Positions 20,481 to 50,050 of a stretch of DNA of 64,000 nucleotides are shown one piece after another. The notes under the pieces were generated by a model. The model was not told the origin of the DNA and searched no databases. It was given only the letters and a program-made list of their open reading frames with translations. The first letter of the stretch is position 1. Every line of letters starts with the position of its first letter. A program made the position numbers and the translations under genes. Source of the stretch: Ensifer oleiphilus (GTDB taxonomy: Bacteria > Pseudomonadota > Alphaproteobacteria > Rhizobiales > Rhizobiaceae); NCBI RefSeq assembly GCF_013371465.1, contig NZ_JABWDU010000008.1, positions 124,001 through 188,000 of the forward strand, given 5' to 3'.

Positions 20481-20526
20481 GGGACAAACCAAACAACACA
20501 AGCGCGACAATCAGGGGAGATGCATC

Positions 20527-21381: not shown

Positions 21382-23118
21382 TCAAAGCCCGTCTACGGGT
21401 GCAGGCGCGGCTACCGCCTCCTGCGCCACCAGGCGAGGCGTCAGCGTCGCCACCGAACGCTTTTCCAGCAGCGTCTTCAGATGATCGGCGAGGCGTATCG
21501 CCAGGCCAAGCGTCATCAGCGTCGGATTGGCGTGACCGGGGGTAGGAAAGATCGAGCTGCCAGCGACAAAAAGCCCGTCCACCCCATGAACCATGGCATT
21601 CGCGTCGACTACGCTGGTCGCCGGATCGCTTCCCATTCGCGTCGTACAGGACGGGTGCGCCATGTCGGTGAACGCAGCCTTGCTATCATCATCCGCGGCG
21701 ATCCAGTCGGCCAGATTCGGCCGTGGAAAGCCATTGCGCACGAACTCGGCGGACAGTGCCCGCGCCAGCCGCTTGACGCTCTGCACCTCTGTGGGGCCGA
21801 TTCTCCAGGCGACGCGCGGCAGCGGCACGCCGTTCCGGTCTCTCTGATCCGACAGAGTGACACGGCTTTCCGCGTCGAGCTTCTGCTCGGCCATGACGTC
21901 GAAACGCAGCGTATCGGATCGATGCATCATTCCCCGCTTTTGGACCACCCTGCGAAAGGTGCCCTTCGCCAGGAACGCAGGCGATCCCACGGCGACAGCA
22001 AGATCGCTCGCAAGCCGCGTGCAATCTCCCCGCATCAGCCGCTTCAGCGCTGCCCAAGGATCGGCCGGCGAATGGATCTGCACGGGATAGGCGGCGCAGT
22101 TGACAAGCTCCTCGCGTCTCTGCACGTCCGGGCTGAGGCACAGGCCGTGCAGATAGAACCGCGTCACCCCCTCGTCGGACAGGCCGTAGAAATTGAAGTG
22201 CCTCGCCACGATGTCGATGTCCCTCCGATCAAACTGGAGAAGCGTCGAGCGCGGGTGATCGGCGAGGTAGCGACCAACGACATCTCTGCCATTGCCGATA
22301 CCGCCCGTCATGACGGACGTCGAAGCCAGCAGCAGCCGTGCATTTTCGATGCCGCCCGCGCACAGAACGACTATCTCCGGCCGTACGCATGCACGGACCC
22401 CGTCAACGCTTCGCAGATCGAGCGACGCGACGCGCCTGCCGCTCTCGTCGAGATGGATCGCGGTAACGGTCGCATCGGTCAGAATATCGATGTTTGGGGC
22501 GACCAACTCGGCAGCCACACGGCCAAACCGCATGGGCTCGCCGCGCTGATCCCGTTCATGGCTGAACTGCCAGAAGAAGGGGCGAAGCAGATCACGGTCG
22601 AAGCCGAGTTCGTCCGGAGGCGAATGCAACCGGCCAAAGAGCCTCTCGTCGTAGAAATTGGGTCCGAGATTGAGCAGGCGTGCCGCGCGATCGAGCGCCG
22701 GCGTCAGGCTTTCGCGGGTCATCGGCCAACCGGACACCGGCAGCCAGGACCGGCGCTCAAAGTCGATTTCGTCGAAACTTGCGCATTTGCCGATCCAGGT
22801 ATGCGTGCTGCCGCCGAGCCCGCGGTTGCGCAACTCGAAAGGCGCTATGTCATTCAGCCATGAGAGGCTGCCGTTATATCCCCGACCCGGACTTTCGACG
22901 CCATTACGGGCAATCGGCTCGCCGACATTCTCAACGGCATTCAAGCTCTGCTGCGCGGCCTCGAAGTCGGCACCGCCGCTTTCGATGATCAGCACCCGGC
23001 AACGGCTGTTGGCCAGCTCGCGCGCGATCGTCAGGCCGACGGGACCGCCGCCGACGATGGCCACATCAGGACGAAACTCGGTGCCTGTAGGGGCTGATCG
23101 GAGATCACGGATCGGCAT
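21382..23118 (-). CDS. GMC family oxidoreductase
   Basis: A 578-residue FAD-dependent glucose-methanol-choline oxidoreductase. The N-terminal dinucleotide motif is VAIVGGGPVGLTIARELA (about 19-36) with the matching acidic strand LIIESGG; RGLGGSTHTWIG is the FAD-contact loop. The C-terminal part has HPSCTTRMG and VAGSSIFPTPGHANPTLMTL, which place the catalytic His and Asn. It resembles bacterial sugar or cyclitol oxidising members. It is convergent with the methyltransferase gene (33-base gap) and divergent from the DegT aminotransferase gene. An oxidation to a keto-sugar or keto-cyclitol that the aminotransferase then aminates would be a natural pairing, but this is inference. Confidence 0.88.
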   Translation of the reverse strand: MPIRDLRSAPTGTEFRPDVAIVGGGPVGLTIARELANSRCRVLIIESGGADFEAAQQSLNAVENVGEPIARNGVESPGRGYNGSLSWLNDIAPFELRNRGLGGSTHTWIGKCASFDEIDFERRSWLPVSGWPMTRESLTPALDRAARLLNLGPNFYDERLFGRLHSPPDELGFDRDLLRPFFWQFSHERDQRGEPMRFGRVAAELVAPNIDILTDATVTAIHLDESGRRVASLDLRSVDGVRACVRPEIVVLCAGGIENARLLLASTSVMTGGIGNGRDVVGRYLADHPRSTLLQFDRRDIDIVARHFNFYGLSDEGVTRFYLHGLCLSPDVQRREELVNCAAYPVQIHSPADPWAALKRLMRGDCTRLASDLAVAVGSPAFLAKGTFRRVVQKRGMMHRSDTLRFDVMAEQKLDAESRVTLSDQRDRNGVPLPRVAWRIGPTEVQSVKRLARALSAEFVRNGFPRPNLADWIAADDDSKAAFTDMAHPSCTTRMGSDPATSVVDANAMVHGVDGLFVAGSSIFPTPGHANPTLMTLGLAIRLADHLKTLLEKRSVATLTPRLVAQEAVAAPAPVDGL

Positions 23119-23176
23119 GAAAAGGACTCCCGCGTGCTACATACCGGTCGTAGCATCAGCGCTTTCGCACCGAAAT

Positions 23177-23393: not shown

Positions 23394-24575
23394 ATGGCGC
23401 GTGTAGGTATCAGAGAATGGCTGGCACTTGCTCCTGTATTTGCGTCGGGAAAGCTGGCCCGCTTCAGCAGCGACGGCAACGGGCCTCTCACCCGTTTCGA
23501 AGCGGATTTCTCCGCCAAGTTCGGCGTCGAGCATGTCCTGACGGTCAGCAGTGGCACCGGCGCGCTGATAGCAGCCCTTGCGGCAGCCGGCGTCGGACCG
23601 GGCGATGAGGTGCTGGTGCCTGCCTACACCTGGATTGCAACGGCGGGCGCGGCACTTGCCGTCGGCGCGGTCCCCATCATCGTCGATATCGACGAGACCT
23701 TGACGATGGATCCGGCAGATATCCTGCGAAAGATAACCCCCTATACGCGCGCCATCGTTCCCGTGCACATGGCCAATATGGTGTGCGACATGGAGCGAAT
23801 CATGCAGATCGCCCGCGACCACCGGCTCATCGTCGTCGAGGATGCCTGCCAGGCGGTCGGCCTGCCCTACAAGGGCGTGCGCGTCGGCACGATCGGCGAT
23901 GCCGGCGCCTTCAGCTTCAACCAGTTCAAGAACATCAACATCGGCGAAGGCGGCGCAGTCGTGACCAACGATGCCAGGCTCTTCGCCAGGGCGCGCATGT
24001 ACCACGATATCGGCGCGCTGTTTCGCGGCCACCTCGACAATGCCAACGAGCCGCCCATGCTCGGCATCAATCTCAAGGCCAGCCAGATCCAGGGCGCCAT
24101 GCTCAACGTGCAGCTGAAGAAGCTGGATCCGATGATCCGCCGCTTGCGCCGTCGCTACGATGCGATCGCCGAAATCCTGTCGTCCAGCAACGCGATGCGC
24201 ATCGGTCCGCACAACGATCCGGAGCATGCCGCCGGCCTGCATGTGATCTTCGATACGGCCGAGGAAGCGCAGGCCTTTGCCGCCGAAAACAAGCGCGGCG
24301 TCTACCGCCTCTACGATTCCAGCCGCCACGTCTACAGCAACTGGCTGCCGGTGCTCGAACAACGCACGGCAAATCCCAAGATGAACCCCTATGCCTGGAC
24401 CTCCCGCAAGATCGAATACGCGCCGGACATGTGCCCGCGGTCGCTCGATATTCTCAAGAGGACATGCCGCATCGGGCTCGGCGAAAACTATCCGTTGCCG
24501 CTCATGACCTATTTCGCCCGACGCATGGCGCGCCAGCGACCCGCCCCCAAAGGGAACCTCGTCTATGCGACCTAG
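23394..24575 (+). CDS. DegT/DnrJ/EryC1/StrS family PLP aminotransferase
   Basis: A 393-residue fold-type I aminotransferase of the sugar/cyclitol group. Visible features are SSGTGALIAALAAAGVGPGD, VPAYTWIATAGAAL, VVEDACQAVGLPYKG and FSFNQFKNINIGEGGAVVTN, where Lys179 is the likely PLP lysine and GEGGA matches the cyclitol/AHBA-like subgroup more than classic 4-keto-sugar enzymes. It should transfer an amino group from glutamate or glutamine to a keto-sugar or keto-cyclitol. Its 3' end overlaps the PPTase gene by 11 bases, linking amino-sugar formation to the NRPS machinery. Confidence 0.9.
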   Translation: MARVGIREWLALAPVFASGKLARFSSDGNGPLTRFEADFSAKFGVEHVLTVSSGTGALIAALAAAGVGPGDEVLVPAYTWIATAGAALAVGAVPIIVDIDETLTMDPADILRKITPYTRAIVPVHMANMVCDMERIMQIARDHRLIVVEDACQAVGLPYKGVRVGTIGDAGAFSFNQFKNINIGEGGAVVTNDARLFARARMYHDIGALFRGHLDNANEPPMLGINLKASQIQGAMLNVQLKKLDPMIRRLRRRYDAIAEILSSSNAMRIGPHNDPEHAAGLHVIFDTAEEAQAFAAENKRGVYRLYDSSRHVYSNWLPVLEQRTANPKMNPYAWTSRKIEYAPDMCPRSLDILKRTCRIGLGENYPLPLMTYFARRMARQRPAPKGNLVYAT

Positions 24576-25365
24576 CCTCGACCGTATCGGTCCCAACTTC
24601 ATCGATATCTGGCGCTGGAACCTCGACCAGGACGAACGCGAAATCGATCGCCTGTTCCCGTTATTGAGCGGCGAGGAAAGGGCGCGAGCCTCGCGTTTCG
24701 TCTATCCGGAACATCGACAACGCTTCATTGCCGGCCGCGCCGGCCTGCGCCTCGTGCTCGGCCACTACCTCCACCTTCCTCCGCACCGCATCGGTCTCGC
24801 CTGCAACGTCTTCGGCAAGCCGCGCATCGCCGGCGCGTCGGAGTTGCTGCAGTTCAATCTCAGCCACAGCGCCGACGTGGCGATGCTGGCGATTTCCGAC
24901 CATTACCCCGTCGGCATCGACGTTGAAGCGATCAAGCCTCTGAAGGAGGATATTGCCGGGCATTTCTTCTCGAAGCGCGAGTGCGACGCTCTGGCCGCAT
25001 TCGACGGCGATGACTACATGCGCGCGTTTTATCGCTGCTGGACGCGCAAGGAAGCCTTCGTGAAGGCTCATGGCGCCGGACTGTCGCTACCGCTCGCTTC
25101 CTTCGACGTCACCGTCGACGCGACATCCCGTCCGAAGCTCGAATCGCTGGATGGTGATCATGACGCGCCACTGAACTGGAGCCTGTTCGATCTCGCGACA
25201 CCGCCTGGTTTCGCCGGCACGCTGGCGGCGCTCACCCTCGGCAACGCGGTGCATCTTCGTTATTGGAATGACGATGTGCTCGCGCTCAAAGCGTCAGTCG
25301 CGCATCCAGCACATAACGATCCCCGGCCGCGTCAAAGTGGTGGCAACCGAGCAAGCCCGGCTTGA
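24565..25365 (+). CDS. 4'-phosphopantetheinyl transferase, Sfp type
   Basis: A 266-residue PPTase. Sfp-type motifs are present: FNLSHSADVAMLAIS (97-111), VGIDVEAIKP (116-125, Mg-binding Asp and Glu) and WTRKEAFVKAHGAG (159-172). It converts apo carrier domains to holo forms by attaching the CoA phosphopantetheine arm to the conserved serines. The four carrier domains encoded at 26897-39731 are the obvious clients. It is translationally coupled to the DegT gene and its last 80 bases overlap the 3' end of the convergent gene at 25286-26872. Confidence 0.93.
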   Translation: MRPSLDRIGPNFIDIWRWNLDQDEREIDRLFPLLSGEERARASRFVYPEHRQRFIAGRAGLRLVLGHYLHLPPHRIGLACNVFGKPRIAGASELLQFNLSHSADVAMLAISDHYPVGIDVEAIKPLKEDIAGHFFSKRECDALAAFDGDDYMRAFYRCWTRKEAFVKAHGAGLSLPLASFDVTVDATSRPKLESLDGDHDAPLNWSLFDLATPPGFAGTLAALTLGNAVHLRYWNDDVLALKASVAHPAHNDPRPRQSGGNRASPA

Positions 25366-26872
25366 AATCGGGCTTGATCGTCCTGATGCACCGTTCTCGG
25401 TAGTTCTCCAGGTCCAGTTGCTCGATCTCCATGATGTTCAGCCCATAGCCGTAGATCCCGTGCGCGTTGTGCTGCGACGGGCGGAAGACCCGTCCTTCCC
25501 GCGCGAAGATCCGGCCGGCATTGCGCGCAACCGTGCTGCCGAGAACCACCGGATTGCGTTTGTGCGGCGTGATGCGTGCCAGCCCCGGGCCATCGACTTC
25601 AAAGACATGAAGTTCGCTGCAATGATCCTCGTAGGCGTGAAACTCCGACAGGTTCGTAAACAGCCACCACCGCCCTTCGTGCCGTGTGAGTATGCTGTCG
25701 GCGGCGGACAAACCGTTCAGTGCCGTTGCATGCAGCTCCCACTTCAAGGGAAACTCGACGCAGCGCCAGATCTCGATGCGCTTGGATTGATGCGTCTCGG
25801 GCATCATGAAGATGTCGTCGCCGTCGCGAAAAACGAACGGATAGGACAGATGGTAGTCGCAGTTCAGCGCCACGCCCACCGGCTCGAGCCGGTCACCGTC
25901 AAAACGGCCGACCGCGATATGCGCCTTGCGGTCGCCATCCGCGTAGGCTTCGTAGAACAAATAGCATTCGTCCTCATGCTGGAGCAGAAACGGATCCGCC
26001 TTGATATCCGTCGCCGTCGGAGGGATCTCGACGGAGCCGCCCGGCTCGAAATCGTCGATCCGGCCGCTGCCGGTAAAGAGTGTCCAGACAGCAGCCCCTG
26101 TCCCGGCCTTGTGCTGCACGGCCTTCTTCACCCGTCCGACAAGGTGACCACTCAGGATGCCGAGATATCGAGTCAATTCGTCGATCGACGGCGGCGAGGC
26201 TTGGCTGCGCGCCGGAAGCGGCGTGGTGATCAGCTCGCCCGTATCGGCCAACCGCGAGAGTTCGCGCAAGAGAAGCGTGGCCGCCCGCTCCTTGACGAAG
26301 TTGATGTTCCTGACCGCGCTGAACTTGATGTTGAAGGACGACGAAGCAATCGCAACGGACGAGGCAGACACGCCGAGCCGAACATAGAGCGCCAGGTCCA
26401 CGGACGGCGCGCCGGTTGCCACCTCGAGATAGCTGAACCACTCGCCTGCTCCGGATTTCTGATCGGAGAAGGACAGGGCCCATTCGCCATAGGACAGCTC
26501 GCGCACGGCGTCGTCAGGCAGGCCATTCGGCGTCATGCGGATCACCAGGTCGAGACCAAGCTCCGCCACTTGCGCCTGCGCCGCACCTGGTTCGGCCGAT
26601 GCCAATGGCACGATGCGTTGCTTGTGCGCATCGAAGTTGCATGGATTGTACGGCGCCTGGCGGCCTAACGCCGTCTGCTCCAGCCGATGAGCAAGCTTGA
26701 AAAACACGGACCTTCGACCGGCCCCGTAGGGTGCCGGATGAACGAGCAAGGCAGTCAGGGCATATCTCGGATCCGCAACGATCCGGTCAAAGACCATCAG
26801 TTGCCAATTCTCGAAGCTCTCGTTCTGCTCGACCAGAATGCCGATGCGCAAGGGGAGGCTTGTGACACGCAT
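25286..26872 (-). CDS. Formyltransferase-like domain fused to a GINT1-type beta-propeller domain
   Basis: A 528-residue protein. Residues about 5-215 resemble a formyltransferase-like domain but the expected catalytic HxGD-type patch reads LSFSD (133-137), suggesting it is degenerate. Residues about 255-528 form repeated blade-like units with ADPFL, SYPFVF and ADSIL, plus LFYEAYADGDRKAHIAVG and WWLFTNLSE; this resembles the N-terminal domain of glucosamine inositolphosphorylceramide transferase 1, a glycan-associated five-bladed fold related to GH43-like propellers. It is 24 bases after the terminal NRPS gene and on the same strand, so probably the last gene of that operon. A role in joining or modifying a glycan is inferred. 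Confidence 0.6.
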   Translation of the reverse strand: MRVTSLPLRIGILVEQNESFENWQLMVFDRIVADPRYALTALLVHPAPYGAGRRSVFFKLAHRLEQTALGRQAPYNPCNFDAHKQRIVPLASAEPGAAQAQVAELGLDLVIRMTPNGLPDDAVRELSYGEWALSFSDQKSGAGEWFSYLEVATGAPSVDLALYVRLGVSASSVAIASSSFNIKFSAVRNINFVKERAATLLLRELSRLADTGELITTPLPARSQASPPSIDELTRYLGILSGHLVGRVKKAVQHKAGTGAAVWTLFTGSGRIDDFEPGGSVEIPPTATDIKADPFLLQHEDECYLFYEAYADGDRKAHIAVGRFDGDRLEPVGVALNCDYHLSYPFVFRDGDDIFMMPETHQSKRIEIWRCVEFPLKWELHATALNGLSAADSILTRHEGRWWLFTNLSEFHAYEDHCSELHVFEVDGPGLARITPHKRNPVVLGSTVARNAGRIFAREGRVFRPSQHNAHGIYGYGLNIMEIEQLDLENYRERCIRTIKPDFKPGLLGCHHFDAAGDRYVLDARLTL

Positions 26873-26896
26873 GGATGTTGCCTTCGCACGCCGCGT

Positions 26897-29701
26897 TCAG
26901 CCCTCGTGATGAGAGCGGAATCTGTTGATGACAATCGTCGCCAGGGCCTGAATGCTGTTGCTGTTGAGGCTATCCTCATGCCAGCCCTCCAGGTCGAAGA
27001 CCTCGGTGTCCGCCGCGATTGCTCCCCCCCAGCCGAAGAGCAGCTTGCGGGCGCGGCGATGGGTGGCTTCGCTTCGAAAAAGCAGAACGGACTTCTCGTT
27101 GGTCGCTGGAGGCCGGTAGCGACGCGCTGCGTTGACCAGCAGATCGGTAACATCGGCATTGACTTCTTCTTCCCGGGAATAGGTCCCAGCCCGCACGCCC
27201 AGGCGCTGGAGGAAGGCCAGCGTGAAGCTGAACTCTCTTAGATAGTCGACAAAACTGAGGCGGCCGGAAAAGAGCTTGCGGGTGAAGTAGCCGATGCGCT
27301 TCAGGCGGCGCTCACCGTTCCAACGCAGGCGCCGCAGCCGGGACTGCGACCTGACATAGCCCGGCGCCCAGGCATCGATGACCGCTGCGAACCGCAGATC
27401 TGCGCCGCGCTGGCGCAGCTGACGGGCAATTTCGACCGCCAGCACACCGTTGACGCAAAGCCCCATGACGCCAACCGGCCCTTTGAGAATGTCTGCGCCC
27501 ATGCTGTCGACGGCATGCCCGGCGATCTCCTCAAGTGACATAGAGGCGAGATCGCCGGTGAGGTCCGCATGGAACATGTTGGCGTTGTAGACCGACACGG
27601 TATCACCGAGGTCGGTGGCAAGTTTGTAGTAGAGGAACGGATGGTTGAGGGTGTAGAGCGTATAGGGCGCATCGGTGCGCCCGCAAGCACTGACGGACCA
27701 GGGGCTTGCACTCGGGCCTTCCAGTTCCGTCCCTCTCGGTTCCGTTCCGCCGAACAGCGCCTTGGCAAAGCCGCCAAACGTCGGCTCCTTGAAGAGCAAC
27801 TCCAGGTCGGCCTTCGCACCAAGCTTCGATCGGGCGCCGGAGAGCATGCGCAATGCCAGAAGCGAGTGGCCGCCCAGCGCGAAGAAGTTATCGTGCGGCG
27901 CGATCGTCGGGACACCGAGCACCTCTGCCCAGATCGCCGCAAGCGCCCTGGTCTGGTCGGGTTGCGCCGGGGCCGGCGCCGGAGTGTTCGCCGGCTCGAG
28001 GCGGTCGGCGACCACCTTGGCGACAGCGGTCGGCTGGACGGGAATGCGCAACGCGGTGCGATCGACGGTGCCGCTGGCATCGCGCGGCAAATTGAGGAGC
28101 ACGCTGATGCCGCCGGGCATGGCGGATTGGGACAGTTGCCGGCCCAGATAGTCCATCAAATGCTCCGGCAGGCGATCGAGCGGTTCCGTGGTCGTCGGGG
28201 CCGGTGTGACGAAGGCATGGGCGCGTTTTCCATCTTCTTCGAGCAGGACCACAGCCGAACCGACGGATGGATGGGCGGCCAGCATCTGTTCGATCGCCGT
28301 CGCGCGCCCCGTCTCGACAGGCTGCGTCTTGATCTCCCGCGGTGGGATGGTCAATGCGGAGAGCGGAGCTGTGGGCTGCTCCAGCGCCATTTCGTAGGCT
28401 TCCTGCCAGAGCCGCAGCAGGGATTCGATCGTCGCCTTTTCGAACAGATCGGCATTGTATTCGATGGACATGCGCCATCCGCTCGGCCTGCCGATCATGA
28501 TGAAGCTCAGATCGTAGATGACGCCAGGGGATTGCGACGGAGCGCTGAGCAACTCGAAACCACCGTACTGATGGTCTTCGAGGAAGGCCTTCTGAAGGTT
28601 GAAGTTCACTGAGATCAGCGGATTGCGCGAGGGGTCGCGGACCGGATTGACCAGTTCCACCAGCTTGTTGAACGGCATTCTGTGGTGATTGAGCGCAGCG
28701 GTCACCGTTGCGCTTGCCGAACGCACATGCTCGGCAAAGGTAATGTCGCGCCCCATGTCGAAGCGCAGAACGACATTGTTGATGAAGACCCCGATGAGGT
28801 TCTCCAGGTCCGTCTCGTCGCGCCCGGCGACCTGCGAGCCGAACATGACGGTATTCTTCCCGGTGTAGCGCTGCAGCAAGGCGCTAACGACGGCAGCTCC
28901 GAAACTGTAGAGCGACACCCGGTGAGCGCGTGCGGCAGCGTCGATCCGCTCGCTGAAATCGCCGGTATTGTTGACAGAGAGGATGTTGCCGCGGCTGGTT
29001 TTGACCGGCCCACGCGGTGTATCCGGAACAACCTCGAAATACGGTGCGCCGGTCAATTGCTCGCGCCAGAACGACTTCTCGGTCTCGAAGCCATAGCTGC
29101 CCAGATACTCCTGCTGCCACAGCGAAAAGTCACCGTATTGCAGCGGCAGTTCGGGTACGGCCGGCTGCCGCCCGGCATCCAGCGCCGAAGCGATCTCGCC
29201 GACCTCGCGGCCCAGCACGCGGATCGACCAGCCGTCAAAGCAGCTCTGGTGGGCCGTGATCAGCAGAAAGCCCCGTTCGTTCTCCACCATCAGCAGCGAG
29301 ACGCGGAAGAGGTAGGGACTGCTGAGATCAAAAGGCGCGCGCGCAGTTTCCTCGCCGATCGACAGGATGCGCTGATCGCGCTGATCAGCGGGCACGTTGC
29401 GCAGGTCGATCACCGACATCCTGAAGTCGACCTGATCAACGACCTGCTGGCAGGGCCTGCCGCCCACCTCGACGAACCGGGTGCGCAGGATCTCATGGCG
29501 CTGGATCACCGTGCGAAACGCCGCCTCCAGCGTCGACGATCGGAAGGCGCCACGGATCTCCCAGCGGACCGCGACGTTGAGCGCCGGATTGCCCGGCTTC
29601 AATTGGTCGAGAATCCAGCAGCGCAACTGGGTCTGGGAACAGGGGAACTCCGCAATCACGGTGGCTTCGGCGGCAGGTGCAGTGTTGTTCGTCTCTTTCA
29701 T
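26897..29701 (-). CDS. Terminal NRPS: variant C domain, A-domain remnant, T domain, Cys-type thioesterase
   Basis: A 934-residue protein. Residues about 15-455 are a condensation domain whose core motif reads HQSCFDG (151-157) instead of HHxxxDG, so the second, catalytic His is Gln152. Residues about 463-552 look like only the C-terminal subdomain of an adenylation domain (IEQMLAAHPSVGSAVVLLEE, then SGTVDRTAL); the large N-terminal core is absent. Residues 575-650 are a carrier domain with Ser613 in LGGHSLLAL. Residues about 678-930 are an alpha/beta-hydrolase thioesterase with Cys749 in GLCVNG where GxSxG is usual, Asp776 and His908. ATG overlaps the stop of the upstream gene (ATGA), so it is translationally coupled. 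It probably releases or transfers the finished acyl chain. Confidence 0.88.
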   Translation of the reverse strand: MKETNNTAPAAEATVIAEFPCSQTQLRCWILDQLKPGNPALNVAVRWEIRGAFRSSTLEAAFRTVIQRHEILRTRFVEVGGRPCQQVVDQVDFRMSVIDLRNVPADQRDQRILSIGEETARAPFDLSSPYLFRVSLLMVENERGFLLITAHQSCFDGWSIRVLGREVGEIASALDAGRQPAVPELPLQYGDFSLWQQEYLGSYGFETEKSFWREQLTGAPYFEVVPDTPRGPVKTSRGNILSVNNTGDFSERIDAAARAHRVSLYSFGAAVVSALLQRYTGKNTVMFGSQVAGRDETDLENLIGVFINNVVLRFDMGRDITFAEHVRSASATVTAALNHHRMPFNKLVELVNPVRDPSRNPLISVNFNLQKAFLEDHQYGGFELLSAPSQSPGVIYDLSFIMIGRPSGWRMSIEYNADLFEKATIESLLRLWQEAYEMALEQPTAPLSALTIPPREIKTQPVETGRATAIEQMLAAHPSVGSAVVLLEEDGKRAHAFVTPAPTTTEPLDRLPEHLMDYLGRQLSQSAMPGGISVLLNLPRDASGTVDRTALRIPVQPTAVAKVVADRLEPANTPAPAPAQPDQTRALAAIWAEVLGVPTIAPHDNFFALGGHSLLALRMLSGARSKLGAKADLELLFKEPTFGGFAKALFGGTEPRGTELEGPSASPWSVSACGRTDAPYTLYTLNHPFLYYKLATDLGDTVSVYNANMFHADLTGDLASMSLEEIAGHAVDSMGADILKGPVGVMGLCVNGVLAVEIARQLRQRGADLRFAAVIDAWAPGYVRSQSRLRRLRWNGERRLKRIGYFTRKLFSGRLSFVDYLREFSFTLAFLQRLGVRAGTYSREEEVNADVTDLLVNAARRYRPPATNEKSVLLFRSEATHRRARKLLFGWGGAIAADTEVFDLEGWHEDSLNSNSIQALATIVINRFRSHHEG

Positions 29702-32700: not shown

Positions 32701-35700
32701 ACGTGCGAACCGGATCTGCAGCGCGTCGTGCCTCGCAACGACGGCATCGAGTGCCCGGCCAAGGCGCTCCCGGTCGAGCGGCCCGTCCAAGACCATTGTG
32801 AAGGACTCGTTGAAGGAGCAGGAGGCTTCATCGCCGGCCTGGGCGGCAAGCCAGATTTCCTTTTGCGCTTCCGTCAGCGGCGCCGTCGACGGCCGGACAA
32901 ATTTTACGCCGGCGGACGCTGGCACGATTTCCTCTGGCTGGCTTTGCGTGCCGAGAATTCCGACCGATTGAAGTGCATCGAGGCTGGTGCGGAAGGCGGC
33001 GGCGATCGCCTGGAAATCCGCTTCGCTGTGGGCGGTCGTCAGGAAGCAGGGATAGCCGTCCTGGATATGGATGCCTTGCATGCGCATCTTGGCATAGAGA
33101 AGCGAACCGAGCGGATCGTCGCTGCCAAACTCGGTGAAGAACCAGCTCTTGTAGCCGTTGACGGACCTGGCGATCCCGCGCCGGGCGAGATCCGCGTTGA
33201 TCTCGGCGACCAGAGCCTGCGTGCGCTCGGCGACCGCACCATAGAGTGCCGCCCCCTCACCCTTGATGTGCTGGAGAACGGCGCGCGCCGCAGCCAGCAC
33301 CAACGGATGGCGCACGAATGTCCCGGCAAAGAAGGTCGGCGCCGTCATCGGAACGCTGTCGTCGCCGTAGTTCCAGCAGCCGCCGTCGAGCGCATCCATG
33401 AAGCGGCTGTCGCCGACCAGGACGCCGATCGGCATGCCGCCGCCGATGACCTTGCCATAGGTGGCCATGTCGCCCTTGATGCCCCAGATCGCCTGCATAC
33501 CGCCGGGATCGACACGAAAGCCTGTGACGACCTCGTCGAAGACCAGCGCGAACTCGGATTTCGTCGCGATATCGCGCAGTGCGCGCACGAACTCGACAGG
33601 CCGCAACTCCGGATGACGGCTCTGAACCGGCTCGATGATAACAGCGGCGATATCGCCGGCATTGGCTTTGATCCAGTCAAGGCTTTCGGGATCGCCGTAG
33701 CGAAGCACCGTCATGTTGGCGACGGAGGCGGCCGGGATACCGGCGGCGACCGGTATTGCGACCGGTGCGCCTGCCCGGTTCTTGCCCTTGACCAAAACTT
33801 CGTCGAACTGCCCGTGGTAGTCGTTGCCGAAAATCACGATCCGATCCCGGCCGGTGACCGTGCGCGCCACGCGCATAGCCGCCATCACCGCTTCCGAGCC
33901 GGTATTGCAGAAGGTCACGCGCTCGTGGCCGGTCATCTCCGCGATCATTTCCGCGACCTCGCCGGCAAGCGGCGTTTGCGGTCCGATGGCAAAGCCGGCG
34001 TCCGCCTGCGCCTTCACCGCCTCCACGACGAAGTCGGGCGCATGCCCGAAGGCCGTCTGGCCCATGCCATTGACGAGATCGATATACTCGTTGCCGTCGA
34101 CATCCCAGATGCGCGACCCCTTCGACCGATCTGAGACGACAGGGAAGACGATCTCCTTCCAGTCCTGACGGAAGCCGGCAGCTGTGCGCGGATCGGCTAG
34201 CCACTTCCGGTTCTGGCCGGTGAAGCTCTTCGACTTTCCGTTCCGTGCCTCGTAGGCTGCAATCAGGTTGGCGACGAACGCCTGTTTTTCAGGGGTCATC
34301 TCTGGCGCGAGGCTCTTGGCACCCGGACGATAGAGCTTGATACGGCCCGCTCCGATTTCACCGTCGGCAGTGGGATCAACCAAATCCTTGGCCAGCGGCT
34401 GCGGCTCAGGCGTCGCAGCCGGATTGGCAATCGCTGCCGCCGCAACGGTCGCCGTCACCGGCGGGGCGGCGGCGGAGCCTGCTGCCTGTAGCACCTGGAG
34501 CTGCTGCGAAACGACCGCCTGCAACATCTGCAACTGCGACTGCAGGACGGCCTCGATGCCGGCAACTGGCGCAGCCATGGTGACAGGGGCAACCGGAAGA
34601 GGCGGGAGAACCGGTGCTGCGACTGGCGGGGCGGATGCGGCGGTAAGCGGCAGGGTGACTTCAGCTCCAGCGGCCACTGACGCCGGCGCCTGCTGCGGCT
34701 CGGGCGGCAGCTGCCGATCGAGATGCGCGGCCAGATCCTGGATGGTGGGAATGTTGCTCAACAGTTCCCGGAACGAGAGCTTGATCTTGTAATCCTTCTC
34801 GATCCTCTGGGCGAACTGGCCGATGAAGAGCGAGTCAAAACCGAGTTCAAGGAATGTCGCACCCGCTTCGCCGGGCCCAAGCGCCTCTCCCGACATGTCG
34901 CTGAGCAAAGTGATGAGCGAGGTTTGCAATGCAGGGATACGGCTTGCAACAACGGCCGGTGTAGCAACATTCATGATTTTCATCCCGTCAGACGATTGCA
35001 CTTGAGTGTCGATGGAAGACGGCTCGGCGGCGAAGAGCTGCGCGACCGGTGATGCCGGCCGGCTTTCGCCGCGCCGCGTGGAGGCAGGCGCGTCGATCCA
35101 ATGGCGCTGCCGCTGGAACGGATAGGTGGGTAGAATGAGGGGCGCGGTGCCGGCTGCCAGCGACGCCGGCCAGTTGAGGTCGCAGCCCGACATCCACAGC
35201 TTGCCATGGGCTTCGGCAAGCGTGTCGCCTGCGGCATGCGCACGATCATGCTCCGGCAGCGACTGGACGACGGCGCTGACCGCATCGCGGCCGAGCGTCT
35301 GTGCAGCGAAGACCGACAGGGTGCGACCCGGCCCAACCTCCAGCAAGACAGGTTTCCGCCCGTCGCAAAGGGTCGCCAGTCCGTCGGAAAACCGGACGGC
35401 GGCACGGCAATGTTTCGCCCAATAGTCGGGCGACATGCCTTGCTCGCCCGTCTGCCAGGCGCCGGTGACGCAGGAGATGTAAGGCGTAATCGCCGTGCCG
35501 TAGGTGACCTTTGCGGTCTCCTCGCGCAGGGCATCGGTGACGCCGTCCATCATTGCCGAATGAAATGCATGTGAGGTGTGAAGCCGGCTGAAGGCGACAC
35601 CGGCGCGCTCCATCGCCGCGCACGCCGCATCGACCGCATCGAAAGTTCCGGAAATCACGCAGAGTTTCGGCGCGTTGACCGCGGCGACCTCGACCCCGTC

Positions 35701-37788: not shown

Positions 37789-39731
37789 GAGGCGCTCCTG
37801 CGGAAGTGGGACATGTTCTTTTTCTGGCGTGCCGCACGTTCGGCCGCCGTCATCGTGCGGGCACTGGCCGACGACTTTCCGTCAAGAAAACCAGCCAGTT
37901 CGCGAACGGTCGTATGCTTGAACAGCGCGACCACATCGATCGGTCGGGCGAGCTTTACCTCCAGCGCCGCATGCACCCGCATCAGCTGCAGCGATGTGCC
38001 GCCGAAATCGAAGAAGTTGCGATCGAGCTCTACGGCCTGAAGGCCGAGGACGCTGCACCAAAGTTCTTGCAAGACCGCCTCGGTTCGGCTGGCGACGGGC
38101 GCGTTTTCGGTGGGCAATGCGTCCACCGGCAGCGGTAGCCTGGCACGGTCGACCTTGCCCGACTGGTGCAGCGGCAACTGATCGAGCACGATCACTGCAC
38201 TCGGGATCATGTAGGCGGGAAGACTGTTGCGCAGCCTTTCCATCACACCGCGGATCAGCTCTGCATCGTCTGTCCGCGTCCCCTCGTGCGGGCACAGATA
38301 GCCGACGATCCGCTTATGGGACTGGTCCAGATGCTGGCAGATAACGACGCCATCGGCGAGCCGCGGATCACGCCGCAAGGCGGCCTCGATCTCATCAAGC
38401 TCGATGCGTTTTCCGTTCAACTTGATCTGCCGGTCCCGCCGGCCCCGAAAGAGGAGGATGCCGTCGTTGCCGAGCACGGACAGATCGCCCGTCAGATAGC
38501 CGCGCACATCGCCCTCGTCGGTACGGATCGTGACGAACCGCTCCGCCGTCAGTTCGGGACGCCGGAAGTAACCGATGGCGACCCCTTCGCCGGTGAGAAC
38601 CAGTTCCCCCTCCATGCCGCGCCCGACCGGGCGATGGTCCTCGTCGACAATCAGTATTCCGGTGTGACCGACGGCGCGGCCGATCGGCACATCCTTGCCG
38701 TCAAACCCGGCGGGGATGTCGAAGGCGGTGGCGATCACGGTGATTTCCGTCGGGCCGTAGCCGTTGGTCAGGCGGCACTCCGGATGCGCCTTCTGAAAAC
38801 GTTTGACATGTTCGGCCGAGGCGACTTCGCCGCCGAACATCAGGTGTCGCAACGTCGGCAGTTCGCCGCAGGAGAAATCGGCGAGCAGATTGAACAGACC
38901 CGTAGTGATCAGGGAGACAGTGACGCCGTTGTCGCGGATGACGTCCCGCAGCCGGCCGATCGAGAAATTTCCGTCCGGCAAACCGGCGATGGTGCCGCCA
39001 TTCGTCAACGTGCCCCAGACCTCGAAGGTGGCGATGTCGAACGCGATTGTGGCCGCGTGCAGCACGACGTCGCCGCTGCCGAGCTCGACATAGTTCTGAT
39101 CGAGCGCGAGCCGGGTGATGCCGCGATGCGGAATGGCGACGCCCTTCGGGCGGCCGGTCGAACCCGACGTATACATGACGTAGGCCATATCGCCACCGGC
39201 GACAGCCACCTGTTCGAATGGCTTCGCCTGAGCGTGCGCGAGATCGCCAACGAGGGCGTGGAGGTTGGCGATCGTGCCCTTGACGCTCGGAACCTGGCGC
39301 ATCGTAACAAGCGTGCAGGTATCGACAAAGACCACCTTCGGCTCGCAGTCGCCGATGACGTAGTCGAGGTGGTCGACGGGAAAGGTCGTGTCCAGGGGCA
39401 GATAGGCAGCGCCTGCCTTCAGGATGGCCAGCATGGCGACGATCGTCTCAAGGGACCGCGGAACGAAGAGGCAGACGATGTCGCCCTTTGTCACGCCCTG
39501 GTCCATCAGGTAGGCGGCGAGCGCATCGGAGAGCGTGTCAAGTTCGCCATAGGTGATCGAGTGATCGTCGAAGATGATTGCCGTCGCCTGCGGAGCCGCC
39601 TGAGCCTGCTGATGAACGATGGCATGAACCGAGCGCTCCGGATCGTAAGACACGGTTTCCTGCGAGCGACCCGTCGCGCGCGCCGGCATCACCGCCGAAC
39701 CGTCCGCTCCGGAAAATCGGAACTCAGCCAT
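37785..39731 (-). CDS. NRPS loading module: adenylation-carrier didomain
   Basis: A 648-residue A-T protein, first gene of the leftward PKS-NRPS operon. A-domain cores are MYTSGSTGRPKGVAIPHRG (A3), NGYGPTE (A5), YLTGDLSVLGNDGILLFRGR (A7/A8) and the A10 lysine Lys526 in QSGKVDR. Specificity residues read by alignment to GrsA are DIFLMGGVIK; Asp at the first position implies an alpha-amino acid substrate, but I do not recognise the code. Carrier domain at about 545-617 with Ser580 in FGGTS. The tail (ERAARQKKNMSHFRRSAS, 631-648) is helical and charged like a docking segment that meets the next ketosynthase. It should activate the starter for the KS of the downstream protein. Confidence 0.9.
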   Translation of the reverse strand: MAEFRFSGADGSAVMPARATGRSQETVSYDPERSVHAIVHQQAQAAPQATAIIFDDHSITYGELDTLSDALAAYLMDQGVTKGDIVCLFVPRSLETIVAMLAILKAGAAYLPLDTTFPVDHLDYVIGDCEPKVVFVDTCTLVTMRQVPSVKGTIANLHALVGDLAHAQAKPFEQVAVAGGDMAYVMYTSGSTGRPKGVAIPHRGITRLALDQNYVELGSGDVVLHAATIAFDIATFEVWGTLTNGGTIAGLPDGNFSIGRLRDVIRDNGVTVSLITTGLFNLLADFSCGELPTLRHLMFGGEVASAEHVKRFQKAHPECRLTNGYGPTEITVIATAFDIPAGFDGKDVPIGRAVGHTGILIVDEDHRPVGRGMEGELVLTGEGVAIGYFRRPELTAERFVTIRTDEGDVRGYLTGDLSVLGNDGILLFRGRRDRQIKLNGKRIELDEIEAALRRDPRLADGVVICQHLDQSHKRIVGYLCPHEGTRTDDAELIRGVMERLRNSLPAYMIPSAVIVLDQLPLHQSGKVDRARLPLPVDALPTENAPVASRTEAVLQELWCSVLGLQAVELDRNFFDFGGTSLQLMRVHAALEVKLARPIDVVALFKHTTVRELAGFLDGKSSASARTMTAAERAARQKKNMSHFRRSAS

Positions 39732-40181: not shown

Positions 40182-41039
40182 CTATGGAAGGTCGTAGGCC
40201 CGGACATAATCGATGAACATGTGGGAGGGATCAGGCGCCTGGTCCGCCGTCTTTTCGACCAGAGCGAGGTTGAGCAGCACATACATCGGCTGCCGGTGCT
40301 CGGGCCGTGTCTCTGCCTTCCAGACGAGTTTCCGGTCGAAATACATCCGGATGAACTCGGAATCGATCTTCACCCCATAGGTGTGAAAGTCCTGGGGATC
40401 GGCATCGCGAAACACCTCGATCCGGCTGAATTGGGAATCGTTCTTGTCGTCTCGATGCCAGACATGGATGACCGAGGAGTAACCGTCCGGCTTGTCGCCG
40501 TAAAATTCCATCACGTCTATTTCCGCCGTCGACTTCGAGCGATCCTTGCCAATCAACCAGAAGGCGGGCCATACCCCGGGACCGACCGGCAGTTGGGCGC
40601 GCATTTCAAAATAGCCGTATTGCTGGGCAAAGCCGTTGCCCTTGGGATCGACCGACGCGAGCAGGCCGGACTGCCAGTCTCCCTCCGGATCACGCTTCGC
40701 CTCGATCCTCAGGATGCCGTTCTCGGTCTTGAAAGGCGTGCGTTCGCCGGGATTGGCGAAGCGGGCACCGCCGAAATCCCCGGACCACGGCGTGTGCGCG
40801 ATCCAACGGGTGCCAGGCCCCCAGGCCGATACATCCAGCTCATCAAAGTTCTCATCGAAGGTCAGACGCATATCGTCGACCGGAAGCGCGTCGCCTGTGT
40901 CCCCGCCCGTGTATTCGTCAGCCGAGGCGCCGGACACGAGCATCAACATCCACAGACAACCGATGGCAGGTCGGACGAAGCGCCGAACTGACGGACGGCG
41001 GGTCAAGCAATGGCGCGGTTCGCGAACAGATGGGGTCAT
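40182..41039 (-). CDS. Secreted glycoside hydrolase family 16 (ExoK-like endoglycanase)
   Basis: A 285-residue GH16 protein with signal peptide (FVRPAIGCLWMLMLVSGASA, about 21-40). The active-site motif EIDVMEF places Glu173 (nucleophile), Asp175 and Glu178 (acid/base). Other family marks are YGYFEMRAQLPVGPGVWPAF and HTYGVKIDSEFIRMYFD. Enzymes of this type cut beta-1,3 or beta-1,3/1,4 glucans or galactans; in rhizobial EPS loci ExoK trims newly made polymer to adjust chain length. The placement beside the polymerase gene supports this role. The start is the only ATG giving a full signal peptide. Confidence 0.92.
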   Translation of the reverse strand: MTPSVREPRHCLTRRPSVRRFVRPAIGCLWMLMLVSGASADEYTGGDTGDALPVDDMRLTFDENFDELDVSAWGPGTRWIAHTPWSGDFGGARFANPGERTPFKTENGILRIEAKRDPEGDWQSGLLASVDPKGNGFAQQYGYFEMRAQLPVGPGVWPAFWLIGKDRSKSTAEIDVMEFYGDKPDGYSSVIHVWHRDDKNDSQFSRIEVFRDADPQDFHTYGVKIDSEFIRMYFDRKLVWKAETRPEHRQPMYVLLNLALVEKTADQAPDPSHMFIDYVRAYDLP

Positions 41040-41178: not shown

Positions 41179-42624
41179 ATGAGCTTTGAACTGATCGGCT
41201 TCGTTACCGTACTCGTGGGGTTGGGCGTGCTCATGGCGCCCATCCATTGGGCTTTGACGTTCATGGTCGTTTCCACCACGCTGGGCTCGGCGGCGGCGAT
41301 CAACCTTCCAGCCCTTGGCGGCGCGTCCATCCTTGTTCCCAATGTCTTCCTGCTGTTTTTCGGTGTCAGGATCCTGATGGCTTATGGCGAAGGCCCGGTG
41401 CTGGCAGCCTTCGCGCCGGCCGGCTCCGGCTTCTGGCTGATGGTGCTCACGCTTTTTGGCGTGCTGACCGCGATCCTGTCGCCTCGCTTGTTCCAGGGGG
41501 CCGTCGATGTAATGACGGTCGAACGATCTGTCGGTGCGAGAAGTTTCATAGCGCTGTCGCCGCTCAGGTCTTCATCCAACAACATAACGCAGGCCGTCTA
41601 CGCGCTTGGTGGGCTTGCCTGTTTCGGGTTCTGCCACGCCTATATGCGCCGCCCGGCGGCTCCCTCGCACCTCGTCAACGCCATCCTCATTACCGCAGCG
41701 GTCAATCTCGCCTTCGCGGCCGCCGACATCGTCACCTACTTCTCCGGCACAGAGTATCTGCTGAGCGTGGTGCGAACGGCCAACTACGCCCTTCTGACCG
41801 CGGCGGAAAAGGGCGGGCTGAAACGGATTTCCGGATCGTTCCCCGAGGCATCGGCCTTTGCCGACTACACTCTGGTGCTGTTTGCCGCGACAGCGAGCCT
41901 CTGGCTCGACCGGGTCCGCTCGCGGGTGACGGCAGCGTTGGCCCTTGCCTCGCTCGCGGGCCTTGTATTTTCGACGTCTGCGACCGCGCTGCTTGGGTTG
42001 GCCGTCGTCTTCCCGTTTCTCTGGATACGGTCGATCGTCACGGTCTTCCAAGGGAACAATTCCGGACGCCCCGTGTTTCTCGCCGCCCTTTTCCTCATCG
42101 TGCCGCTCGTCCTGCTCATGGTCGTCAACATGTTTCCGGAGATGGTGTCGACCGTTTACGACTTTCTCGATGAGATGCTCCTGTCAAAGGTCGACAGCCA
42201 GTCCGGCCGCGAGCGCGCCATGTGGAACGCGGCCGCCTATGAGGCGTTCGTCAACACTTTCGGCATGGGCGCGGGTCTGGGAAGCGCACGCGCCTCCAGC
42301 TATCTGCTGGTCCTCCTGTCGAATGTCGGTGTTCTCGGGCTGGTCATCTTCTGCATCTTCGTCGCAACCATCCTTTGCGCGCGCGTGCCGTCGGCGGCTC
42401 AGCGGCGTGTGGAAGGTCTTGCAGCGCTACGGGCAGCAAAAGCCGGAATTATCGCCGCTCTCAGCACGTCTCTCGTTTCCGGAACCGTCTATGACCTGGG
42501 CCTGCTGTTCTACATCCTCGCCGGCAGCGTGTCGGCGCTGACATGCCTGCAAATCGCCGAGACGGCAGCACCCCGACCACGACTGATCGCCGCGGCTGGC
42601 CCGCGCCGCATGGGAGGCTCCTGA
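41179..42624 (+). CDS. Polysaccharide polymerase, Wzy/O-antigen ligase-like membrane protein
   Basis: A 481-residue integral membrane protein with about ten or more hydrophobic segments, for example LIGFVTVLVGLGVLMAPIHW, VFLLFFGVRILMAY, LVLFAATASLWLD and VFLAALFLIVPLVLLMVVNM. The large periplasmic loop region has GGLKRISGSFPEASAFADYT and, later, SGRERAMWNAAAYEAFVNT then FGMGAGLGSARASSYLLVLL, the pattern of Wzy_C/O-antigen polymerases. It should join flipped repeat units. The stop TGA shares one base with the ATG of the pyruvyl transferase gene. Confidence 0.85.
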   Translation: MSFELIGFVTVLVGLGVLMAPIHWALTFMVVSTTLGSAAAINLPALGGASILVPNVFLLFFGVRILMAYGEGPVLAAFAPAGSGFWLMVLTLFGVLTAILSPRLFQGAVDVMTVERSVGARSFIALSPLRSSSNNITQAVYALGGLACFGFCHAYMRRPAAPSHLVNAILITAAVNLAFAAADIVTYFSGTEYLLSVVRTANYALLTAAEKGGLKRISGSFPEASAFADYTLVLFAATASLWLDRVRSRVTAALALASLAGLVFSTSATALLGLAVVFPFLWIRSIVTVFQGNNSGRPVFLAALFLIVPLVLLMVVNMFPEMVSTVYDFLDEMLLSKVDSQSGRERAMWNAAAYEAFVNTFGMGAGLGSARASSYLLVLLSNVGVLGLVIFCIFVATILCARVPSAAQRRVEGLAALRAAKAGIIAALSTSLVSGTVYDLGLLFYILAGSVSALTCLQIAETAAPRPRLIAAAGPRRMGGS

Positions 42625-43907
42625 TGAAGGTGGTCGTCTTCAACGTCAAATACAGCGAAAACCTCGGTGACGGCGTTCTTGCTCAGTGCCTTGAGACCGC
42701 ACTCGCTCGCGGCGCAAAAGGGCTGGAGGTCAAGACGATCGATCTCGCCGGCAGGACCGCTTTCGGCACCGGCGGTGGTGGGCGGCGCCGGCAATTGCTG
42801 AAGGTGCTGCAGGCACTGCCCGCATTTGCGCGCCGTCTGGTCGTCAGGCAGGCGCTTGCCCCGACACTGCGCCGATTGCAGGTCGAATGGCTCAAGGAGA
42901 TCGAGGCTGCCGATGCCGTCGTGATCGGCGGGGGAAACCTGTTTCAGGACGATGACCTGAACTTCCCGCTGAAGGTGGGAGCGGCGCTCGACTGTGTCAA
43001 ACGCAGCGGCAAGCCGCTCGCAATCTATGCCGTCGGCACCAGCCGGGATTGGTCGCCACAGGCAAGACAGCTCTTCGGCAGGATCGAGGAGAGCCAGCTG
43101 GTCCATGTCTCGGTCCGCGATACGATCGCCAGCCGCAACTGGTTCGGCCATTTTCCAGCCGGCCCGCACGCCCGGATACTGCCCGACCCCGGATTGCTCG
43201 TTCGGGAGATCGTCGCGAGCCACGCGCTCGAGCCGCTGAAGTCTGAGGACCGGGCGATCGGCATCTGCGTCACCGACCCGCTGATCCTGCGGCGTCACGC
43301 GGGCCACGGGTCGCACGGAATTCCGTTTAGGCATATCGAAGACTATCATCGGTTGCTGAGCATGCTACTCGAAGCCGGATATAGGATCTGTCTCTTCACC
43401 AATGGGGCGCAGGAAGACCAGATCTTTGCGCGGCGCATTCTCAGCGGTGACGGCCTCGCGGGGCAAATCGACAGCGGCAATCTCTATCTCGCCCCCCGCC
43501 CCAAAACGCCCGAGGAACTGGTCAACATTATCGCGTCGACGCAGGTTATCCTGGCGCATCGTCTGCACGCCTGCATCGCCGCCTATTCGCTCGGCGTGCC
43601 GCAGGTCGGTCTGGGTTGGGATCCGAAGGTCGACGGCTTCTTCCAGTTCGTCGGCCGGTCGGAGTATTTTGCCGGTGAAGCCGACGTCTCCGCACAACAT
43701 GTCGCCGCCTTGCTTGAGGACGCAGCCCGCAGGGGCATCGATCCCGAGACCCACGCCTCCATCCTCAATCAGGCCCGCGACGGCATCTCGCTGCTGCGAG
43801 AATGCCTTGAGAAGCACCAGAACCGCGGCGCGAACCGGAAGACCCAGCCTGCGGTTGTGCCGAATGAACAAGGCTTGGCCGGCTACGCCTGGTCGAGCGG
43901 CCTCTGA
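42624..43907 (+). CDS. Polysaccharide pyruvyl transferase family protein
   Basis: A 427-residue protein starting MKVVVFNVKYSENLGDGVLA, with a GGGAGG just upstream and TGATG overlap with the polymerase gene. Family marks are ADAVVIGGGNLFQDDDLNF, SVRDTIASRNWFG, DPGLLV and VILAHRLHACIAAYSLGVPQ, including the conserved histidine pair region. It should transfer pyruvate from phosphoenolpyruvate to a sugar of the repeat unit as a ketal, giving the polymer negative charge. CsaB/ExoV-like enzymes of this family are common in rhizobial EPS loci. Confidence 0.9.
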   Translation: MKVVVFNVKYSENLGDGVLAQCLETALARGAKGLEVKTIDLAGRTAFGTGGGGRRRQLLKVLQALPAFARRLVVRQALAPTLRRLQVEWLKEIEAADAVVIGGGNLFQDDDLNFPLKVGAALDCVKRSGKPLAIYAVGTSRDWSPQARQLFGRIEESQLVHVSVRDTIASRNWFGHFPAGPHARILPDPGLLVREIVASHALEPLKSEDRAIGICVTDPLILRRHAGHGSHGIPFRHIEDYHRLLSMLLEAGYRICLFTNGAQEDQIFARRILSGDGLAGQIDSGNLYLAPRPKTPEELVNIIASTQVILAHRLHACIAAYSLGVPQVGLGWDPKVDGFFQFVGRSEYFAGEADVSAQHVAALLEDAARRGIDPETHASILNQARDGISLLRECLEKHQNRGANRKTQPAVVPNEQGLAGYAWSSGL

Positions 43908-50033: not shown

Positions 50034-50050
50034 TCCGCGGTTGGGTTGGT

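Follow-up and report, generated by a model that had tools for sequence, protein, structure and literature searches.

Hybrid PKS-NRPS lines with a built-in aminotransferase (AMT) are known from the biosynthesis of iturin/mycosubtilin and microcystin. Acyl groups also reach surface polymers and sugars by shorter routes: in the D-alanylation of teichoic acids (DltA/DltC), adenylation and a carrier protein put an amino-acyl group on a surface polymer, and in the butirosin side chain and the viosamine of Pseudomonas flagellin an ACP-borne acyl group is moved to the amine of an aminosugar, this amine being made by an aminotransferase. The capsule PKSs RkpA and WcbR contain reducing PKS domains. They are type I PKSs encoded in capsular polysaccharide clusters (PMC3557214, PMC3908369); RkpA is proposed to yield a lipophilic carrier or anchor, and KR, DH and ER are given for the comparator SwfA.

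The locus described here belongs to Ensifer oleiphilus, a soil bacterium related to the root-nodule rhizobia, and was analysed in a window of 64,000 nucleotides, by which the whole stretch of DNA is meant. Searches of openly licensed literature found no described system of this layout, a PKS-NRPS line within a Wzx/Wzy exopolysaccharide locus. The line resembles the iturin/mycosubtilin and microcystin systems in its KS-AT-ACP-AMT-C-A-PCP order and in an AMT nearest to MycA, but it begins with an amino-acid A-PCP, stops after glycine at a C-PCP-TE protein that lacks an A core, and sits among Wzx/Wzy genes. With RkpA/WcbR it shares the placement of a type I PKS beside polysaccharide genes in rhizobia, whereas it lacks reducing domains and has two condensation domains and glycine activation; an RkpA-like lipid PKS was rejected because KR, DH and ER are absent from the Pfam table of the PKS. 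Its adenylation/carrier-protein logic is that of Dlt, but the line is multi-module and TE-terminated, and no match to MBOAT (DltB-type) was found among the 30 window proteins scanned. The butirosin and viosamine systems employ single carrier proteins or a short chain, with neither a PKS-NRPS line nor a Wzx/Wzy polymer.

That the line has remained with polymer genes in many related bacteria suggests a polymer bearing a small, made-to-order peptide. In the reading that we prefer, and to which we give an even chance, the line is a PKS-NRPS cassette dedicated to a Wzx/Wzy exopolysaccharide and puts an aminoacyl-beta-amino-acyl-glycyl group on the glycan repeat before export. If this is true, non-ribosomal synthesis also writes groups onto exported polysaccharides, beyond the making of free small molecules; genome miners would wrongly list such lines among the orphan natural-product clusters, and amine-bearing groups on polymers from symbiotic and biofilm bacteria would have escaped carbohydrate chemists.

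The exopolysaccharide locus around the line

Re-annotation of open reading frames and domains in 21382..43907 reproduced the gene calls, gene order and coordinates of an earlier note made from the sequence. The exopolysaccharide locus recognised in that note is real and wider than it stated, Pfam and NCBIfam annotation extending it over window positions 10225-45781 with the PKS-NRPS line inside. The genes of the locus, and an RND set beyond it, are as follows.

10225..11403, minus strand: GT4a glycosyltransferase (Pfam PF00534)
11735..13060, plus: Wza-type export protein (PF02563, SLBB)
13107..15380, plus: Wzc/ExoP-type co-polymerase (PF02706, CbiA; TIGR01005 below its cut-off)
15359..16297, plus: GT2 glycosyltransferase (PF00535)
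16302..17609, plus: GT4b glycosyltransferase (PF00534)
17818..18516, plus: initiating sugar-phosphate transferase (PF02397, E 2e-60)
18690..20480, plus: Wzx-type flippase (PF13440)
20404..21348, plus: methyltransferase, TIGR04325 family (above cut-off)
21382..23118, minus: GMC oxidoreductase (PF05199)
23394..24575, plus: DegT/DnrJ/EryC1 sugar aminotransferase (PF01041, E 8e-77)
24565..25365, plus: Sfp-type phosphopantetheinyl transferase, PPTase (PF01648)
25286..26872, minus: formyltransferase-like fold plus five-bladed GH130/GH43-type propeller (fold comparison)
26897..29701, minus: C (HQxxxDG)-AMP_C remnant-PCP-TE (Cys) (Pfam, motifs, TE fold)
29698..37788, minus: KS-AT (malonyl-type)-ACP-AMT-C-A (Gly)-PCP, 2696 aa (Pfam, AMT comparison, motifs)
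37785..39731, minus: loading A-PCP (Pfam)
40182..41039, minus: GH16 glycoside hydrolase (PF00722)
41179..42624, plus: probable Wzy polymerase, a membrane protein (position and co-conservation)
42543..43907, plus: polysaccharide pyruvyl transferase (PF04230)
44128..44844, plus: Crp-type regulator (PF13545)
45014..45781, plus: LuxR-type regulator (PF00196)
46872-51945: RND pump, adaptor and TetR, 3 kb past the pyruvyl transferase

Pfam thus recognises the initiating transferase, Wzx, Wza and Wzc of a Wzx/Wzy pathway. The protein of 41179-42624 gave zero matches in Pfam or NCBIfam models and is probably Wzy, judged by its position and co-conservation. Within the wider exopolysaccharide family no gene is more conserved than GT4a, found at E<=1e-90 in 27 of the 297 family genomes. 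The Crp and LuxR regulators adjoin the block in seven of the eight core genomes, the contig of the eighth (G255) ending there.

Domain organisation of the line and its predicted product

The line is encoded by three minus-strand genes with the architecture A-PCP / KS-AT-ACP-AMT-C-A-PCP / C-PCP-TE, and the two PF00668 matches in the window's genome both lie within it. Pfam domains and active-site motifs place KS, AT, carrier, C and A domains together in the 2696-aa protein, which is thus a type I PKS-NRPS hybrid; its AMT follows the ACP, as in a mycosubtilin-type beta-aminoacyl module, and is nearest in the PDB to mycosubtilin synthase A (MycA), at 3e-110 against 2e-56 for the next family. The KS Cys (77/77 rows), the PLP Lys of the AMT (79/79), the glycine code of the second A domain (81/81) and the thioesterase nucleophile, a Cys within the motif GLCVNG (77/77), are conserved throughout. 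The first A domain, or loader, is variable, with 39 codes in 74 rows, A-domain codes being derived from alignments with the usual specificity rules. The loader code of the window, DIFLMGGVI, equals no specificity code known to us, and that of Methylocella and Methylocapsa equals what we take to be the valine code. In 11 of the 80 best loci (of 101 relatives) loader and KS are fused, and the A domain of the loader gives matches to DltA models too, below their cut-off.

The last module departs from a complete terminal NRPS module (C-A-PCP-TE with an A core and HHxxxDG): Pfam finds the AMP_C remnant alone and no A core, the condensation motif reads HQSCFDG in place of HHxxxDG, and the catalytic His of this C domain is missing in the window and from 73 of 81 rows. 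By structure comparison the TE has the fold of ordinary release domains (EntF, SulM, ObiF1), its sequence matches to solved structures being weak.

The choice of malonyl and glycine, the transamination and the order of modules are predicted from homology. The A-PCP protein would load a variable alpha-amino acid, the KS-AT module would extend it with malonate, the AMT would turn the beta-ketone into a beta-amine and the next module would append glycine, giving an aminoacyl-derived beta-amino (beta,gamma-diamino) acyl-glycyl thioester; the MycA-like AMT and the constant glycine code support the beta-amino-acyl-glycine core that had been predicted earlier. The C-PCP-TE protein, without an A domain of its own, would receive the chain, and the Cys thioesterase may pass it to a sugar amine or hydroxyl in the lipid-linked repeat or a precursor. 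In the clade of the window, GMC and DegT would create the acceptor amine by turning an alcohol into a ketone and the ketone into an amine. Export and polymerisation of the decorated repeat would fall to Wzx, Wzy, Wzc and Wza, so that a peptide exporter would be unnecessary. The earlier interpretation, a glycan decorated by the NRPS product, is supported as regards the linkage to export genes, the cassette and the core, and we infer the glycan transfer itself, the identity of the acceptor and what GMC, DegT and the propeller protein do.

The same reading may be stated more fully, although tentatively and at slightly less than an even chance: the assembly line offloads onto a lipid-linked glycan repeat an amine-rich peptidyl group with a lineage-variable first residue, forming a surface-antigen cassette of rhizobia, Rhodobacterales and other alphaproteobacteria that is partly carried on plasmids. 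The missing catalytic His of the last C domain counts against the preferred reading, which does not explain the last transfer. The peptide might instead serve as an anchor, cap or cross-link, present once per chain or joining chains and not on every repeat. Such a role has a precedent in the capsule-locus PKSs RkpA/WcbR, thought to make a lipid carrier or anchor, and the two free amines of the predicted product would suit cross-linking; it appears quite improbable here, the line having no reducing domains for lipid synthesis and its strongly variable starter being more in keeping with a surface group than with a fixed anchor.

Linkage to polysaccharide genes across relatives

A genome scan yielded 101 relatives of the line, of which the best 80 loci were retained; four were too short to judge (L063, L065, L084, L086), leaving 76 informative loci. 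Polysaccharide genes are linked to the line in 73 of these 76, and the linked loci span several alphaproteobacterial orders. The co-occurrence search suggested in the earlier note was thus answered positively, with a block order conserved across several genera, which is more than chance. Among the family genomes the order is conserved in eight, rearranged but still linked in G278, and different but linked in G052 and G198; one of 11 hits, G003, was dropped as another NRPS at 30% identity. In a control on the 20 hardest genomes, an initiating transferase lies within 30 kb of the line in 14/20 and within 30 kb of other condensation-domain groups in 0/11, one of these 11 (G297:C33) being a weak fragment and contig ends limiting the 30-kb test; G316:C243 was excluded since it may be the opposite end of the gene of the line itself. 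Four plasmid copies, from the four records read out of 19, likewise have the line amid polysaccharide genes in their published annotation. The tie between the line and polysaccharide export genes is strongly supported.

The tree of the last C domain tracks bacterial orders closely (three changes for three groups, the minimum possible being two), so that much of the linkage may be a single old inheritance. This is what would be expected if the line were a passenger, an unrelated biosynthetic cluster that arrived in the exopolysaccharide locus a single time and was passed on with it thereafter. We regard such an origin as very improbable: the linkage persists though gene order is very different among G278, G052, G198 and the Rhodobacterales, and in the core clade DegT and GMC enter and leave together with the line.

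The three unlinked loci are those of Methylocapsa and Methylocella, and they too weaken the preferred explanation. A line without polysaccharide genes and with its own transporter had been named beforehand as the refuting case; the former exists here, and no own transporter was found among the flanking genes annotated there. Of these, only Methylocapsa aurea and Methylocella tundrae were seen to have a RuBisCO-like neighbour; in Methylocella silvestris, with its flank annotated in small part, an alpha/beta-hydrolase is the next gene to the line. These loci favour the release by the TE of a free small molecule (a signal, chelator or matrix additive), the locus being shared through co-regulation with biofilm formation. 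The release-type fold of the TE, the Crp and LuxR regulators that go with the block, and the RND pump near the line in the window and G270 point in the same direction. We nevertheless consider a free product unlikely, as PPTase, DegT and GMC are interleaved with Wzx and Wzy genes, the great majority of informative loci retain polysaccharide genes despite rearrangement, and no exporter is conserved beside the line.

The last point upholds the earlier observation that a dedicated exporter is lacking, with a caveat for the RND pump at 46872-51945. The RND set is syntenic in G270, a sister that is 97% identical, and no RND match occurs in the stretch read for five of the six other family genomes with the block; G255 has a partial match 6 kb beyond GT4a, at the opposite end of the locus. 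Weak matches (22%) lie near L094, L096 and L098, and a Loktanella plasmid has an RND pair some 11 kb beyond the line, with pca genes between. The nearby pump was rejected as a dedicated exporter, its synteny being confined to G270 and the other matches being partial, weak or separated.

Companion genes and sibling loci without the line

Line-less Rhizobiaceae Wzx/Wzy loci (G137, G256, G250 and others) were compared in 14 of the 18 GT4a-bearing genomes that lack the line (G029, G128, G196 and G219 were left out); the genes of G063 were read by tblastn. GT4a, Wzy and Wzc (14/14) and GT2 (13/14) are shared with the line-bearing loci. DegT and PPTase are present in all eight core loci with the line and, like the PKS-NRPS itself, in 0/14 siblings; GMC is present in 8/8 and 1/14, respectively, absences being weaker in G174, G102 and G100, with 18-20 kb of sequence each. 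The assignment of DegT and GMC to the NRPS block, proposed from gene order, agrees with these counts, and it is strongly supported that DegT, GMC and PPTase travel with the line as a cassette. Neither DegT nor GMC lies beside the line in G052 and G198, in six of the 53 long-enough core loci (L092-L094, L096-L098; Agrobacterium/Peteryoungia-type) or in any of the 23 distant loci; this counts against the preferred reading, under which another acceptor must serve there. DegT-family genes occur somewhere in 19/19 distant genomes (Pfam), one of them about 35 kb from the line in G324.

Sugar N-formyltransferases such as ArnA and WbkC have a catalytic Asn-His-Asp. In the protein of 25286..26872 the propeller noted earlier is present, together with an N-terminal formyltransferase-like fold that had gone unmentioned (Foldseek, whole model); its Asn and His positions are not conserved in 41 rows, the alignment being judged by eye, and no solved structure matched it by sequence. 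It also occurs in three of the 14 sibling loci and is thus not specific to the line, for which reason it was rejected as an NRPS tailoring enzyme.

With sibling loci that have or lack the cassette, and with a loader that varies, the idea can be tested directly in harmless rhizobia. In the sibling G212 the corresponding space is filled by a different set of proteins for nitrogen and acyl handling, which speaks for the preferred reading: an amidotransferase resembling asparagine synthetase, an AMP-forming ligase and an NAD-synthase-like protein.

The exopolysaccharide locus and the PKS-NRPS line

The gene calls made in the earlier note from the sequence of the window were borne out by Pfam and NCBIfam scans, by which the exopolysaccharide locus was found to extend beyond the block described there. 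The main features are as follows:

10225-45781, exopolysaccharide locus: first part, GT4a, Wza, Wzc/ExoP-type, GT2, GT4b, initiating transferase, Wzx and TIGR04325 methyltransferase; middle, GMC, DegT, PPTase, propeller protein and three PKS-NRPS genes; end, GH16, probable Wzy, pyruvyl transferase, Crp and LuxR
25286-26872 (-), propeller protein: formyltransferase-like fold with a five-bladed GH130/GH43-type propeller
26897-29701, last protein of the line: C-PCP-TE
2707-8682, left of the locus: peptide-type ABC transporter, M20 peptidase and two luciferase-like monooxygenases

The 6.76-Mb genome of the strain encodes proteins closest to those of Sinorhizobium sp. A49 and Ensifer adhaerens; condensation domains were matched in it twice, both times within the line. 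The genes at 2707-8682 are conserved in the sister genome G270 and do not adjoin the block in other core (Rhizobiaceae-type) genomes.

Domain organisation and expected product

The domain order of the line in the window is A-PCP, then KS-AT-ACP-AMT-C-A-PCP, then C-PCP-TE. The 80 loci fetched from relatives show an identical order where the sequence retrieved is of sufficient length; BLASTP picked up the ACP in just some of them, and a few are interrupted, in the piece or in a reading frame, by contig ends. In 11 of the 80 loci, from Rhodobacterales or from unplaced bins of alphaproteobacteria, a single protein contains both loader and KS, and the sequence of the first two steps is thereby fixed. 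Key residues were assessed in alignment rows that include the window sequence. The AT motifs GHSVGE (77/78 rows, the remaining row being a gap) and HAFH (78/78) are presumably of the malonyl type, and the KS Cys (77/77), the AMT Lys (79/79) and HHxxxDG of the first C domain (80/80) are intact throughout. The loader A-domain code begins with Asp in 74/74 rows, as for an alpha-amino acid substrate, with 39 variants among them, while the A domain before the second PCP carries a glycine-type code, DILQLG, with small changes after it, in 81/81 rows (6 variants). The closest AMT is that of mycosubtilin synthase A. Because of the domain order, the motifs and this likeness, the product expected from homology would be an amino acid with a two-carbon extension bearing a beta-amine, followed by glycine.

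The last module lacks an A core in the Pfam scan of the window. The catalytic His of its C domain is replaced by Gln in 73 of 81 rows (HQxxxDG; HHxxxDG in the other 8), with at least six changes on the tree. The TE has a Cys nucleophile in 77/77 rows, the matching Asp in 75/77 and a His in 59/77 (12 gaps, 6 other residues), and its predicted model (pLDDT 81) resembles the PCP-TE pairs of EntF and SulM, as well as ObiF1 and Pks13. The TE of Pks13 transfers an acyl group onto a sugar.

Linkage of the line to polysaccharide genes

A relative of the last line protein was detected at E<=1e-60 in 11 of the 297 family genomes, one of which (G003) carries a different NRPS. Eight have the block complete or for the most part, in a single gene order or rearranged (G278); G052 and G198 combine the line with genes for transferase, GT, Wzx, Wzy and Wzc, arranged differently.

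A scan of named genomes yielded 101 relatives, of which 80 were retained, and nine polysaccharide markers were scored within the stretch available. At least two markers are present in 39 of the 57 core loci; the remaining 18 comprise four short pieces, L051, in which Wzy and pyruvyl transferase are visible in a wider stretch, and 13 loci with the initiating transferase 16-28 kb from the line (three of these gone through in full). The line is thus linked to polysaccharide genes in 53/53 informative core loci. Among the distant loci (other clades), 19/23 have at least one marker and 17/23 at least two, and L099 has an initiating transferase at 23 kb together with GTs and a UDP-sugar dehydrogenase. 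As a control, in the 20 hardest genomes the initiating transferase lies within 30 kb of the line in 14/20, as against 0/11 for other condensation-domain groups. Relatives of the line were also found in 19 plasmid records, and polysaccharide genes surround it, by published annotation, in all four examined (Jannaschia, Rhodobacter, Loktanella, Rhizobium). The locus is often borne on plasmids or megaplasmids (NZ_CP081160.1, L169; NZ_CP072995.1, L171; NZ_CP083371.1), one Jannaschia plasmid being 71.7 kb.

In total, linkage, which the earlier note proposed to check by co-occurrence, was observed in 73 of the 76 informative loci. On the best reading, the glycan repeat would receive a peptidyl group from the line; the leading alternative is that the line makes a product that is released free. 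The three exceptions, L102, L104 and L121 (Methylocapsa, Methylocella), have none of the polysaccharide genes near the line. This is part of what the note had held to count against a peptidyl-decorated polysaccharide, the other part being a transporter of the line's own, and no transporter was seen among the flanking genes annotated in these genera.

The line resembles RkpA and WcbR, type I PKS genes reported from capsule clusters (PMC3557214, PMC3908369), in the pairing of a type I PKS with surface-polysaccharide genes. The main text of the genome paper on Rhizobium sp. PRF 81, taken as the R. freirei strain of L076, never uses the terms nonribosomal, NRPS or polyketide, and searches of openly licensed papers turned up none that describes this layout. 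Surface polymers are known to be decorated with acyl and aminoacyl groups, and there is a chance that the present case is categorically new.

Cassette structure and other neighbours

GT4a, a marker of the wider exopolysaccharide family, is present in 27/297 genomes, nine with the line and 18 without, and sibling loci from 14 of the latter were compared with eight core loci.

Genes in exopolysaccharide loci with and without the line
Without the line (n=14): GT4a 14, Wzy 14, Wzc 14, GT2 13, DegT 0, PPTase 0, methyltransferase 0, GMC 1, propeller protein 3
With the line (n=8): DegT 8, PPTase 8, GMC 8, propeller protein 8, methyltransferase 6

The line and its accompanying genes form a cassette. 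However, the association does not follow a simple rule, as the line occurs without DegT or GMC in G052 and G198, and DegT is missing from six core loci (L092-L094, L096-L098) and all 23 distant loci. Three siblings that belong to a single genus, G212, G063 and G266, retain the propeller protein. At the place of the line, G212 has an asparagine-synthetase-like protein, an AMP-forming ligase (best model TIGR03098, score below cut-off) and an NAD-synthase-like protein, and the ORF pattern of G266 matches it; the line cassette and a different nitrogen- and acyl-handling cassette appear to have been exchanged. An ABC exporter gene and large Gly/Asp/Gln-rich proteins adjoin the sibling exopolysaccharide genes in G212 (L141-L142) and G266 (L145-L146).

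In Methylocapsa aurea and Methylocella tundrae (L131, L132, L133, L134), the three-gene line and a RuBisCO-like gene are flanked on one side by genes of cytochrome c oxidase (COX1, UbiA; also COX3 in L133) and on the other by SURF1/threonine synthase, and polysaccharide genes were not found near the line. An S15/PepX (CocE-type) hydrolase gene lies immediately downstream of the line in 8/80 loci (L103, L105, L106, L107, L112, L113, L118, L119; Rhodobacterales and two unplaced bins), adjoining the PPTase gene where that is seen, and is likewise annotated in two plasmid copies; it might serve in trimming or transfer of amino-acyl groups. In L101 (Consotaella), L111 (Methylobacterium) and L121/L138 (Methylocella silvestris), the gene right after the last one of the line encodes an alpha/beta-hydrolase (PETase/PAF-AH-like).
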